A DNA stretch of 64,000 nucleotides, from positions 62,001 through 126,000 of the forward strand of contig BBBM01000001.1 of NCBI GenBank assembly GCA_001311565.1. Direction: 5' to 3'. Position numbers and translations under genes: made by a program. The DNA is from Desulfothermus okinawensis JCM 13304. GTDB lineage: Bacteria; Desulfobacterota; Desulfovibrionia; Desulfovibrionales; Desulfothermaceae. Under the pieces are notes generated by a model. That model was not told the DNA's origin. It searched no databases and was given only the letters and a program-made list of their open reading frames with translations. Positions 4,202 to 30,123 of this stretch are shown one piece after another. The stretch's first letter is position 1; every line of letters begins with the position of its first letter.

Positions 4202-4258
4202 GTTCAAAAACAGGTTATTAGAGATAATTGGAGATTAGTGGATCTGTTTTTTATTTCT

Positions 4259-4450
4259 GCCTATTCCCTTAGCTCCGATTATTGATTGCGTTATGGAGAA
4301 AGTGAATAGTGAATAGAGATTAGTGAAAGGTAGAAGGGTGAAGGATGTATGTGAGAGTTACAGATCACAGACACATACCACAGACACAGCAAAGCTCAGG
4401 ATGAAGACCACATTGAACCTTGAACGTTAACCTTGAACTTTGAACGCAGA
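4259..4450. repeat. Heptamer-mosaic intergenic repeat, copy 1 (degenerate MITE-like)
   Basis: The 256-nt gap between tgt and lon holds no gene. It starts with GCCTATTCCCTTAGCTCCG (4259-4277), similar to the terminal inverted repeat of copy 2 at 26.5 kb, and continues as tracts of degenerate 7-mers: AGTGAAT/AGTGAAT/AGAGATT/AGTGAAA, GGTAGAA/GGGTGAA, CACAGAC/ACATACC/ACAGACA, and TTGAACC/TTGAACG/TTAACC/TTGAACT/TTGAACG. The far inverted end is not recognisable here. Confidence 0.7.
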
Positions 4451-4457
4451 TTTTTAT

Positions 4458-6909
4458 TCACTGAGTCTTTTGTGAAACTTCTTCTTTTCTCAGCCTGTAT
4501 GAAATAGGAACTATTTCCTTTGAGGTCTCTAAAAAGTCCCTGGGTTTTATATCTTGTAGGGCAATTGGCAAAACATCGTCCATGTGATCCACTTCAACTA
4601 TCTCTAAATCTTTTAGAATGGTATTTGGTACTTCTTTCAAGTCCTTACTATTTTCCTTTGGGATAATGACCTTTGAGACCATACCCCTATGGGCCGCAAG
4701 CAATTTTTCCCTGAGTCCACCAATTGGCAATATCCTACCACGTAAGGTGATCTCGCCTGTCATGGCAACATCATTTTTAACCGGAACATTGAGTAGAGCT
4801 GAAACAAGGGCAGTTGCCATAGTTATTCCAGCAGATGGACCATCCTTTGGAGTTGCCCCTTCTGGTACATGAATATGGATGTCCACTTCCTTATAAAAAT
4901 CTCTCTTAAGGCCAAATAGCTCTGAGCGAGTCCTTACATAGCTTAGGGCTGCTTTTGCAGATTCCTGCATCACTTCCCCTATCTTTCCTGTTATTTCTAT
5001 CTTTCCACTACCGTCCATAATTGCTACTTCTATCATCAAGAGCTCTCCGCCAAGCTCTGTCCATGCAAGGCCTGTGGCCAGTCCCACCTGTGATTTTTCT
5101 TCCCTCTCACCATGCCTAAACCTTGGGACTCCCAAATATGATGAAATTGAACTTTTAGTTACAGTAATTTTTCTGTCTAGATCCTTTCCTTCTACCAATT
5201 TTTTTGGCAACCTTCCTACACACAGAAGCTATCTCCCTCTCAAGGTTCCTGACTCCTGCTTCCCTTGTATATTTCCTGATAATCTCAACCACCGCACCAT
5301 CAGAAAAAGAAACATTTTTGTCCTTTATTCCATGTCTCTCACTCTGTTTTGGAATGAGAAAATATTTAGCTATTTTCAACTTTTCATCTTCTAAGTAACC
5401 AGGAAGATGAATTATCTCCATCCTGTCCCTCAATGCCCACGGAATTGTCTGCAAGGTGTTTGCAGTGGTTATAAAGAAGATATTTGATAGATCATAATTT
5501 AGGTCTAAATAGTGATCATTGAAGGCATAATTTTGTTCTGGATCCAAAACCTCTAGCAATGCAGCTGATGGGTCTCCCCTGAAATCTGTGGACATCTTAT
5601 CCACCTCATCTAAGCATATGACTGGATTGTTATACTTTTTCTTTCTCAAAGAAAGTATTATTTTCCCAGGCAGGGCCCCAACATATGTCCTCCTATGTCC
5701 TCTAATTTCTGCTTCATCCCGAACACCTCCAAGAGATATCCTTATAAAGTCTCTATCCATTGCCCTTGCAATAGACCTGGCTAGAGAAGTTTTTCCCACC
5801 CCAGGAGGGCCAACAAAGCACAAAATAGGACCTTTAACCTTGTCCACCAATTTTTGAACTGCCAGGTATTCTAAAATCCTCTCCTTTGGCTTTTCCAACC
5901 CAAAATGATCTTCATCTAATATCTTAGCTGCATGTTCTATATTAATATCTGTTGTTTTGATTTCATCCCAAGGCAAATCCAAAATGCAGTCCACGTAATT
6001 TCTAACAACTGTATACTCCGCAGAGGAAGGGGGCATTTGTTTGAGTTTCTTTATCTCCCCATAACCTTTTCCTTTGCCTCATCAGGCATTCTCTTTTCTT
6101 CAAGGAGTTTTACTAGATTTTCCACCTCCTCAAAGGGATCCTGTTCAAGCCCCATTTCTTTATGGATAGCCTTTAACTGTTCATTTAGATAGTAATTTTT
6201 CTGGTTTGATTCTATTTGCTCTTTCACCCTTTGGTTTATCTTGGCCTCAATTTCCAAGAACTCTATTTCGCTGATAAGAAGTCCGTAAACAATCTCCAAC
6301 CTCTTGACAGGGTCTAATTCTTCCAAGACCTCCTGTTTTTTCTCAAAACCTGCTCTCAAATGGGGGATAATGGTATCAGCCAGTTTTCCAGGATCATTGG
6401 TATCCAAAATTAGCTTTAAGGCATCTTTAGATATTCTCTTTGACGATTTTACATATTTTTTTCAATGTGTCTTTTGTTAGGCGAACAAGAGTATCTCCTT
6501 CTTCCGACACCGATTTACTGTCATGTAAGATATTAATATCCACCACTGGGAAATTACCAGTTTCATCAAATAACGGATCTTCACCTGTCCATGTAGCTCT
6601 TTTTATTCCCTCAAACAGAACTTTAATGGTTCCGTCTGGAAGTCTTAGTAGCTGAAGGATCTTTGCAACTACTCCCATTTCATACAGATCTTCCTTTTTT
6701 GGAATTTCAATTTCAGGATTCTTTTGGGTTACTAAAAAGATCCATCTATCAAATTCACTTAAAGACTTCTCTACCGCTTTAATTGAGCTTGGTCTTCCAA
6801 CATAAAGAGGCATAATCGCACCAGGAAAGATTACTACATCCCTTAAGGTCATAACGGGTAATTCTCTAAATTTTATTTCTTTATCCATTTCATGGGCTAT
6901 TTCACTCAT
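4458..6909 (-). CDS. lon: ATP-dependent protease La
   Basis: Homohexameric cytosolic AAA+ serine protease. Order on the minus strand: N-terminal substrate domain ([22 protein letters not shown]), coiled-coil middle ([13 protein letters not shown]), Walker [10 protein letters not shown], Walker B LDEVDKM, sensor regions, then the protease domain with catalytic Ser in [15 protein letters not shown] and Lys in [13 protein letters not shown]. About 815 residues, normal. Three indels: T7 at about 6465 (should be 6), a G4 at about 6057 that needs G5, and T7 near 5205. A Shine-Dalgarno AGGAGG precedes the ATG. It follows clpX on the same strand. Confidence 0.96.
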
Positions 6910-18779: not shown

Positions 18780-20215
18780 TTAATTATTCAATCTTTTTGC
18801 AAACAACTTAGATACCACCTTTGGATTTGCCTTGCCCTTTGTTTTTTTTCATTACCTGTCCCATAAAAAAACTCATGAGTTTCTTTTTACCATTTTTGTA
18901 TGCCTCAACTTCCTTTGGATTTTCCTTGATTACTTCCTCAACAATTTTCTCCAGCTGGGAATCATCAGATATTTGAATAAGTCCTTTTTCCTCAATGTAT
19001 TTGTTTGGGTCTAAATTTTTGTCAAAGATATCAGGAAATACATCCTTTGCTATCTTTAAGCTTATTTTTCCATCCTTAACCAATTTTAAAAGATTTGCAA
19101 AATTATAAGGGGTAAGAGTTATCTCTTGAGGTTTTAAATTCTTCTCATTGAGTTCCCTTAAAAGGTCAGTTTGAAACCAGTTGTACACTTCCTTGGGGCT
19201 ATTATAGATCTCTACCACTTCCTCAAAATAGTCAGCCAGGTGTTTATCTGACACAATGAGATCTGCCTCATTCTCAGACAAATGATATTCTTTAACAAAT
19301 CTATCCAGTTTTTCAAGTGGCAACTCTGGAATCTCCCCTTTCCACTGGTTTAATTCCTCATCTAAAATCATAACAGGCACCAGGTCTGGATCTGGAAAAT
19401 ACCTATAATCATGAGCCTCTTCCTTACCTCGCATGGACCTGGTTATTCCCTTTGATTCATCATAGAGCCTGGTCTCCTGAATTACCTTCTCCCCATCTTC
19501 CACAAGGTCTATCTGACGCCTGACCTCATATTCAAGGGCCTTTTGAACATGTCTAAATGAATTCATATTCTTTAGCTCTGTCCTTGTTCCCAGTTTTTCT
19601 TCTCCCCTTGGTCTAATAGATACATTGGCATCACACCTAAAACTACCTTCCTGCATGTTTCCATCGCATATATCCAGATATACCAGAATAGATCTAAGTT
19701 CCTTTAAGTACAAAACAGCCTCCTCAGGACTGTTTATATCTGGAGCAGAAACTATTTCTATAAGGGGCACACCTGTTCTATTTAAATCAATTAAGGTCTT
19801 GTTTTCCCCGGGCACATGTATAGACTTCCCAGCATCGTCTTCCATGTGAATCCTTACAATCCGCACCCTCTTTGTGCCTTGTTCAAGCCTTAAGTCTATA
19901 TATCCATCCACAGCAAGGGGTTCCTCATATTGAGAAATCTGATACCCCTTGGGAAGATCTGGATAAAAATAATTTTTTTCTGGCAAATAGAGAATTTTTA
20001 TTTATTTTACAATTTACAGCTAGGGCCATCTTTGTTGCATATTCCACAGCCTTTTTGTTTACAACAGGTAATGCACCTGGCATAGCAGCGCACACAGGAC
20101 ATGTATTTTGATTGGGTGGTTCACCAAAAGTAGTGGGACAAGAACAAAACAACTTGGATTTTGTCTTAAGTTGTGCATGCACCTCAAGTCCTATAACAAC
20201 TTCATATTTGGACAT
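18780..20215 (-). CDS. gatB: Asp/Glu-tRNA amidotransferase subunit B
   Basis: Part of GatCAB, which amidates mischarged Glu-tRNA(Gln) and Asp-tRNA(Asn). [12 protein letters not shown] at the start, zinc-site cysteines FCSC...[18 protein letters not shown], and a YqeY-like tail. T7 near 19975-19981 should be six. The final T8 (18842-18849) should be seven; corrected, the gene ends [22 protein letters not shown] at 18780, the classical GatB tail, instead of a spurious Gly-rich end at 18808. No gatA or gatC is in this window. Confidence 0.95.
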
Positions 20216-25770: not shown

Positions 25771-25977
25771 TTATTCCCTTCTTAAAGGGACGCTGCAATT
25801 TGGACACATCCGCTCAAAACACGGCTGGCCCCTAAAATGCTCTTCTTTGTAACCACATTTTGGGCAAATACACATTCCATCGGGCTGACCCCGCATCCTG
25901 CCACCTCCACCCATTCCTCTTCCACCTCCCTGACTTCTACCTCCGCCTTGACCTCTTCCGCCTCCTTGACCTGGCAT
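25771..25977 (-). CDS. Gly-rich protein with C-terminal zinc ribbon
   Basis: 68 residues: MPG then a low-complexity GQGGGR-type repeat, then a four-Cys zinc ribbon CICPKCGYKEEH...CFERMCPNCSVPLRRE. AAGGAGGTGG precedes ATG 25977, so an independent start is well supported. If the T7 at about 25994-26000 is one base too long, the upstream NifX-like frame reads straight into this gene, making a NifX-zinc-ribbon fusion with an internal start. Confidence 0.75.
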   Translation of the reverse strand: MPGQGGGRGQGGGRSQGGGRGMGGGGRMRGQPDGMCICPKCGYKEEHFRGQPCFERMCPNCSVPLRRE

Positions 25978-26491: not shown

Positions 26492-26521
26492 TAATTTATT
26501 CAAAATAGTAATGAATAATTC

Positions 26522-26719
26522 GCTTATTCCCTTAACTCCGAAATCTAAAACTTTTGATGTGTCTGTGTATGTGGTCTGTGTCTAAAGTTCAACGTTCAAG
26601 GTTCAATGTTCAAAGTTTTAGGTGCTCTTCGCCCTTCTACCTTCATCCTTCGCCCTTATACTAACAACTAAAAACTAATCACTAATCACTTGATCCATAA
26701 CGGAGTTAAAGGAATAAGC
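26522..26719. mobile_element. MITE-like repeat with terminal inverted repeats (copy 2)
   Basis: Bounded by GCTTATTCCCTTAACTCCG (26522-26540) and its inverse CGGAGTTAAAGGAATAAGC (26701-26719), one mismatch in 19. The 160-nt core is a mosaic of degenerate 7-mers (TGTCTGTG-type, TTCAACG/TTCAAGG/TTCAATG, CTTCGCC/CTTCTAC, ACTAATC/ACTAATC). The same motif families occur at 4259-4450 in opposite orientation and partly different order. No coding capacity; probably a non-autonomous repeat. Confidence 0.6.
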
Positions 26720-26751
26720 AGAATGGATAATTCTCAACTAATATACAGTAA

Positions 26752-28357: not shown

Positions 28358-30123
28358 ATGGCCTACGATGCAACCAAAATGGAAGATTGGCAAATCTCAG
28401 AGGCTGCAGAGGAAAATATGCCTACTCCAGATGAGTGGCGGGAAAAATTGGGACTTCAAAAGGATGAAGTAATCCCAATGGGTAGACTCTGCAAATTGGA
28501 CTTCCTAAAAATCATAGACAGGCTCAAAGATCGTCCTGATGGTAAATACATAGAAGTAACCGCTATCACCCCAACACCATTAGGAGAAGGCAAAACCACC
28601 ACATCTGTGGGACTCATGGAAGGACTTGGAAAGAGAGGCAAAAATGTTGGTGGTGCCCTTCGTCAGCCTTCTGGCGGACCAACCATGAACATCAAAGGAA
28701 CAGCAGCTGGTGGTGGAAATGCAATTTTAATCCCAATGACTGAATTTTCCCTTGGACTAACTGGAGACATAAATGACATAACAAATGCCCACAATCTGGC
28801 AATGGTTGCCTTAACAGCCAGGATGCAGCACGAGAGAAACTATGGGCCAGAAAAAAATAGAAAAACTCTCTGGTATCCCAGCACTCAATATTGACCCAAC
28901 AAGGGTTGAAATGGGATGGGTGATGGATTTTTGTGCCCAGGCACTCAGGAATATCATAATTGGTATTGGTGGAAGATTTGATGGATACACCATGCAATCT
29001 AAGTTCGGAATATCTGTAAGTTCCGAATGTATGGCCATTCTTGCCATTGCAAAGGATTTGGCTGACCTCAAAAAAACGTTTAAATGAGATTACTGTTGCA
29101 TTTGATAGGGATGGGAAACCAGTAACCACAGGAGACCTCCAGGTAGGAAATGCAATGTGTGCATGGATGAGAAATACCATTAACCCGACCTTAATGTGTA
29201 CTGCAGAATATCAGCCATGTATGGTGCACGCTGGTCCATTTGCCAACATTGCTGTGGGACAATCATCTATTATTGCTGACAGAATAGGTCTGAAGATGTT
29301 CGATTACCATGTAACTGAATCTGGTTTCGCAGCAGACATTGGATTTGAAAAATTCTGGAATGTAAAATGTAGATTAAGCGGTCTAAAGCCTCACGTATCA
29401 GTTTTAACAGTGACCATCAGGGCACTTAAGATGCATGGTGGTGGACCAAGGGTTGTACCAGGAAGGCCACTTCCAGAAGAATACATCAAGGAAAATGTTG
29501 AGCTAGTTGAAAAGGGATGTGAAAACATGGTTCACTTAATTAATGTGATTAGAAAGTCTGGAATGAACCCAGTTGTATGTATCAATAAGTTCCATACTGA
29601 CACAGACGCAGAGGTTGCTGCAGTGAAAAAGATCGCAGAACAGGCTGGTGCAAGATGTGCTGTATCTGATCACTGGAGATATGGTGGTGATGGAGCATTG
29701 GAGCTTGCTGATGCAGTTATTGATGCATGTGACGAAGAAAGTGAATTCAAATTCTTGTATCCAATAGAAATGAAATTAAGGGATAGGGTTGAGATCATTG
29801 CCAAGGAAGTATACGGTGCAGACGGTGTAACCTGGACACCTGAGGCCGAGAAAAAGGCAAAGATGTTGGAAGAGGATCCAAAATATGCTGATTTTATGAC
29901 CATGATGGTTAAGACGCATCTGTCCCTCTCCCATGACCCAACACTTAAGGGTGTTCCCAAGGGATGGGTACTTCCAATAAGAGATGTTCTCATTTACTCA
30001 GGAGCTAAATTCCTATGTCCAGTAGCTGGAACAATAAGCCTCATGCCTGGAACAAGCTCAAAACCAGCATATATGAGAGTTGATGTTGATCCTAAGACTG
30101 GAAAGGTATCTGGTCTGTTCTAA
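28358..30123 (+). CDS. fhs: Formate-tetrahydrofolate ligase
   Basis: ATP-dependent synthesis of 10-formyl-THF; first methyl-branch step of the Wood-Ljungdahl pathway and general one-carbon supply. [16 protein letters not shown] (P-loop), [32 protein letters not shown], and C-terminal [13 protein letters not shown]. 588 residues after removing one A from each of two A7 runs (28851-28857, 29069-29075). GGAGT precedes ATG. A strong terminator follows. Monocistronic. Confidence 0.97.

Follow-up and report, generated by a model that had tools for sequence, protein, structure and literature searches.

A probable MITE with a heptamer-mosaic interior in Desulfothermus okinawensis JCM 13304

The heptamer-rich element found at two loci of the 64,000-nucleotide stretch of DNA analyzed here (hereafter the window) is very probably a MITE, that is, a non-autonomous DNA transposon that would be moved in trans. 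Its interior would consist of captured heptamer arrays, copied as passengers and later altered by internal deletions. The features of the two copies, including terminal inverted repeats (TIRs) and target-site duplications (TSDs), are as follows.

26511-26518, + strand: left TSD of copy 1, ATGAATAA, 7/8 identity with the right TSD
26519-26722, + strand: MITE copy 1, complete, 204 bp, defined by both TIRs and the TSD
26519-26541, + strand: left TIR of copy 1, TTCGCTTATTCCCTTAACTCCGA, 2 mismatches against the genome-wide TIR consensus
26558-26583, + strand: TGTG-type module of copy 1, TGTGTCT/TGTGTATG, from sequence reading and alignment to the 286-bp copy
26587-26621, + strand: GTTCAAN heptamer module of copy 1, N = C, G, T, A, final unit GTTTTAG
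26627-26658, + strand: CTTCNNC heptamer module of copy 1
26660-26689, + strand: ACTANNN heptamer module of copy 1 (ACTAATC/ACTAACA)
26700-26722, - strand: right TIR of copy 1, the reverse strand reading TCTGCTTATTCCTTTAACTCCGT
26723-26730, + strand: right TSD of copy 1, ATGGATAA
4248-4255, + strand: left TSD of copy 2, TTTTTATT
4256-4450, - strand: MITE copy 2, 195 bp, beginning on the - strand with TCTGC fused straight onto the GTTCAA array
4256-4278, + strand: intact TIR of copy 2, TCTGCCTATTCCCTTAGCTCCGA, 0 mismatches to the consensus
4446-4450, - strand: remnant of the other TIR of copy 2, TCTGC (5 bp), with deletion of positions 6-78 of the 286-bp copy
4451-4458, + strand: right TSD of copy 2, TTTTTATT

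Ends, copy number and target-site duplications

The window belongs to contig C1 of a draft assembly of 2.77 Mb, 2.45 Mb of which was read. The ends of the element are imperfect 23-bp TIRs with the consensus TCTGCYTATTYCHTTARCTCCGA, which gave 67 matches with no more than 3 mismatches, as against 0 for the reversed control. The 19-bp TIRs with one mismatch described in the original prediction, at 26522-26540 and 26701-26719, were confirmed, the real ends of the element being 26519 and 26722 according to the 23-bp consensus. The second locus had been regarded as a partial copy at 4259-4450. It is indeed a second copy, the bounds of which are 4256-4450. It is complete rather than a fragment, being flanked by a perfect 8-bp TSD, although one of its TIRs has been cut to TCTGC.

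None of the conditions that the original prediction had named as refuting it held: the copy number is far above two, the TIR is conserved among the copies, and the 7-mers are enriched well beyond chance. In the 2.45 Mb read, 30 of the 67 TIR ends pair up into 15 copies, from which the size of the family was estimated to be roughly 50 copies. The end profile searches gave about 25 left ends and about 25 right ends in 1.94 Mb. The copies, which at 79-286 bp fall in the MITE size range of 50-1000 bp, show the features of a MITE: they are multiple and dispersed, lie mostly outside long ORFs, and are bounded by TIRs and by a TSD of fixed length. Many copies have a single recognizable end, and several of these show no clear TSD.

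The TSD was examined in 17 paired copies by anchoring on the TCTGC...GCAGA ends, with mismatched flank pairings as the null. Perfect 8-bp TSDs were observed in 8 of the 17 copies (null, 0.4%), and 8-bp TSDs with at most one mismatch in 10 of the 17 (null, 3.7%). The signal dropped to the null at 7 or 9 bp, and none of the 20,000 permutations reached the observed value. The duplicated sites are 91% A+T. On contig C13, two near-identical copies lie 862 bp apart and carry the TSDs TTTTTCTA and TAACTTTA, respectively. This difference shows that the two copies, with the same interior, were inserted separately.

The outer flanks lie within long ORFs for just 17 of 70 ends, while ORFs account for 62% of the sequence read. 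Such avoidance of ORFs would also be seen if the element were a structured RNA or a transcription terminator under selection, similar to REP/BIME sequences, and copy 1 does fold better than its shuffles (z = -3.98). The fold of copy 1, however, is largely due to the pairing of the TIRs, as in any MITE, and no significant folding was seen in copy 2, where one TIR is lost (z = -1.68; 15 of 200 shuffles were equally good). In addition, the sole Rfam match in the window is a tRNA, and the element was not found in the 16 relatives searched. It is therefore extremely improbable that the element is a selected RNA structure.

Heptamer periodicity and interior architecture

The core of the element had been described as built almost wholly of degenerate 7-mers, and the 7-bp periodicity was confirmed in both copies. 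The lag-7 identity was 0.524 in copy 1 and 0.492 in copy 2, as against 0.271 ± 0.034 and 0.266 ± 0.034 expected from Markov simulations, and none of the 20,000 simulations reached the observed value of either copy. The two copies have the top two lag-7 scores of the 64-kb window. Their 7-nt tandem units, which exceed other periods, are those of a heptamer long simple sequence repeat. An imperfect 18-bp tandem repeat of 3.2 copies was also noted in the window, at 25916-25972. In the genome as read, 74 tandem arrays were found at lag 7, as against no more than 26 at any lag not divisible by 7. GTTCAAN triplets with no more than 2 mismatches numbered 121, as against 0 for the reversed control.

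The seventh base of the GTTCAAN units is nearly even among A, C, G and T (19/19/23/14), and the other positions vary little apart from the recurrent terminal unit GTTTTAG. Adjacent units show no preference for identity: the base was shared in 9 of 58 distinct neighbor pairs, where about 14.5 were expected. An active avoidance of the same seventh base by neighboring units was considered and rejected (P = 0.06 with duplicates removed). A stop codon in every heptamer as a reason for selection was rejected likewise, because the count of 49 among 63 families was not significant against 45 ± 2.9 expected. Nor do heptamer arrays in general appear to be governed by a single wobble position: at external loci, the most variable phase of 165 arrays accounted for 0.47 of the variation against 0.40 expected, only a slight excess.

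Every paired copy is collinear with the 286-bp copy (C8:49715-50000), with 81-93% identity; modules are missing, and short insertions are occasionally present. In the alignment, for example, positions 123-182 of the 286-bp copy are absent from copy 1. The motif families of the two copies in the window had been described as being in a partly different order. Because both are collinear with the longer copy, this difference is only apparent, and is due to different internal deletions, not to shuffling. It is worth noting that the ancestral state of the 286-bp copy is an assumption, and that module gain could likewise explain parts of the pattern. The gap lengths between copies showed a mild enrichment for multiples of 7.

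The ends and the interior can also be found separately. A minimal copy of 79 bp on contig C20 has the ends, while the GTTCAA, CTTC and ACTA modules are absent; the ends are thus able to exist without these modules. Conversely, the mosaic occurs without recognizable ends at some loci of the genome, for example C9:19988-20200 and C15:5262-5366, and 10 of the 23 GTTCAAN clusters in the genome have no nearby TIR. Two GTTCAAN arrays of this genome, C16:5575-5601 and C15:8204-8243, apparently lie within protein-coding sequence; the host gene of the former resembles a flagellar rod-binding gene by eye.

These free-standing arrays bear on another explanation, namely that replication slippage created the arrays separately at every site, as ordinary long simple sequence repeats, and that the TIRs are incidental. 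Slippage of heptamers was put forward by Mrazek et al. 2007 (cited in PMC4679880). The heptamer is the dominant tandem unit not only in the present genome but also at 80 external loci from many phyla, where lag 7 was still dominant after GTTCAAN was masked (78 arrays, against at most 8 at lags other than 14). Independent slippage, however, does not account for the exact 8-bp TSDs, nor for four different modules that share a common order and common single-copy joints, and recent slippage would have made neighboring GTTCAAN units preferentially identical. As a general account of the element, it is thus very improbable. Slippage is contradicted for the TIR-bounded copies and remains the likely origin of the free-standing arrays. 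The original prediction had offered slippage-driven arrays or a mobile cassette as alternatives; the mobile MITE is supported by the 8-bp TSDs, the 67 TIR matches and the C13 copies, while slippage alone does not account for the dispersal and is not required for it, although it may contribute to gain and loss of units.

Transposase search and proposed movement

A transposase recognizing the TIR, which the original prediction had proposed to look for, was not found among four Pfam transposase families in this fragmented and frameshifted assembly, and in the 2.45 Mb read no gene lies between a pair of matching ends. In the window, the genes for Lon (4458-6036), GatB (18808-19986) and formate-THF ligase (29041-30123) are split or truncated across frames, as indel assembly errors would give. 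Such splitting of conserved genes is probably behind the 44% completeness of the assembly. The IS1595 and ISL3 families were rejected as the source of the element, both being absent from the genome. A DDE_Tnp_1 gene on contig C53 was also rejected as the parent: no matching end was present upstream of the gene in the stretch examined, and the other end would be beyond the contig end. This locus (C53:16-1700), beside the contig end, contains a long ORF in which an upstream domain is joined to a DDE transposase-like domain.

The genome has a single copy of an IS256-family gene (C4:22158-23227), and a half MITE (C4:21797) adjoins this IS. The element might accordingly be regarded as a deleted remnant of the IS, the more so because IS256 elements make TSDs of 8-9 bp. 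The ends of the IS256 copy (TAGTGTA...TTTTTCTGTAAAA), however, are unlike the MITE TIR and so do not point to an IS256-derived MITE. The layout also fits insertion of the IS in or beside a MITE. An origin as an IS256 remnant is consequently highly improbable.

The preferred reading, a MITE moved in trans, would proceed as follows. An element of about 80-290 bp with imperfect 23-bp TIRs would be mobilized by a DDE-type transposase, a class suggested by the TSD together with the TIRs, and the parent element would now be lost or absent. The enzyme would make staggered cuts, the length of which is shown by the TSDs to be 8 bp, in AT-rich and mostly intergenic DNA. The interior mosaic of TGTG-type, GTTCAAN, CTTCNNC and ACTANNN modules would most likely go back to a single capture of free-standing heptamer arrays from intergenic DNA, and these would then have been copied as passengers of the MITE. 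Later, different modules would have been lost from each copy by internal deletion, and a TIR would have been lost from some copies.

The direction of capture is suggested by the distribution of the two components. In the 16 relatives, which were searched with the 286-bp copy, the element with its TIRs was not found; six of the 16 gave matches in the heptamer modules only and none in the ends. Free-standing arrays of the words, lacking the TIRs, occur in several of these relatives and in bacteria of over ten phyla, so that the MITE is most likely to have trapped arrays that already existed.

Known systems and the heptamer words in other genomes

The closest precedent is BrickBuilt of Porphyromonas gingivalis (PMC4596501), a MITE-like element described by its authors as having trapped a direct repeat of 23 nt, which it now propagates. 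Both are intergenic, species-restricted bacterial MITEs that spread tandem repeats, with variable repeat content and many copies missing one end. The unit of BrickBuilt, however, is 23 nt (41 nt in the accompanying 464/PgRS elements) and belongs to a single family, while the present element has a period of 7, a mosaic of four heptamer families and exact 8-bp TSDs. By inspection, the TIR of BrickBuilt (CCGAAAGGTCTC-like) also differs from that found here. The present element therefore appears to work as BrickBuilt does but to belong to a different family. It resembles prokaryotic MITEs in general (reviewed in PMC10969869) in being small, non-coding, TIR-bounded, intergenic and without a transposase; it differs from them in its repeat-mosaic interior, and its parent element was not found.

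Heptanucleotide long simple sequence repeats have been described as TAACTGA arrays (PMC4679880) and GGGAATC arrays (PMC4692102), and GTGATTA arrays in Helicobacter pylori are cited in the latter. Like the present modules, these arrays are degenerate and intergenic, and the ACTAATC family is the reverse complement of GTGATTA. Unlike the element, they were described without carriers having TIRs or TSDs, and the TAACTGA unit is not matched by the GTTCAAN, ACTANNN, CTTCNNC and TGTG-type units found here. Among the longer tandem repeats of many bacterial genomes, heptamer arrays are the most common, and their spread is unexplained. The distribution of the TAACTGA arrays was suggestive of horizontal transmission, the mechanism of which was not evident (PMC4679880). 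The TSDs observed here show that heptamer arrays can travel as transposon passengers, which is one possible mechanism of transmission, for words other than TAACTGA and within one genome only. Since the same words are free-standing in many unrelated bacteria, the element would be one way of copying such arrays around a genome.

Among the genomes searched, the TIRs are confined to this one while the words are widely common; the origin of the words can therefore be tested as a separate question. A genome of the same genus (G001) has its own mosaics of other words (GTGATTN, ACCAATA and TAGAACN), and the TIRs of the element were not found at its loci that were read. These loci (L331-L360) are dispersed mosaics without TIRs, with their own vocabulary, in which GTGATTN has all four bases at N. 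The TIR gave no match in viral contigs, a pattern specific to the element gave none in public genomes, and comparison of the whole element with plasmids and phages gave nothing beyond one GTTCAAN match of 33-34 bases each.

A four-unit GTTCAAN array, on the other hand, was found on at least 118 contigs from more than ten phyla, including Bacteroidota, Cyanobacteria, Verrucomicrobia, Acidobacteria, Desulfobacterota, Nitrospirota, Planctomycetes and candidate phyla. Three-unit arrays were present in 51 of the 297 genomes belonging to the phylum of the host. In viral contigs, the four-unit array was present in 90 stretches, as against 4, 3 and 15 for three letter-permuted words and 24 for GTGATTN, counts that are not independent because the viral set contains related contigs. 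The dominance of heptamers has been described before (Mrazek 2007, cited in PMC4679880; also in PMC4692102), but why these particular words recur across phyla is unexplained. The numbers of contigs and viral stretches are compatible with a further reading, in which certain heptamer words, chiefly GTGATTN and GTTCAAN, the latter with a free seventh base, make up an intergenic array vocabulary that recurs across bacterial phyla. This vocabulary would be made or kept by some sequence-specific process or binding protein and not by neutral slippage, MITEs such as the present one being one carrier. We consider this rather unlikely.

In some viral contigs, apparently in related groups, four to six GTTCAAN arrays lie on one contig (L386, L424, L411 and L435). 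At seven other loci (L138, L225, L226, L241, L252, L253 and L273), from many phyla, GTTCAAN arrays form inverted pairs about 20-90 bp apart, which may represent long hairpins or inverted ends made of heptamers.
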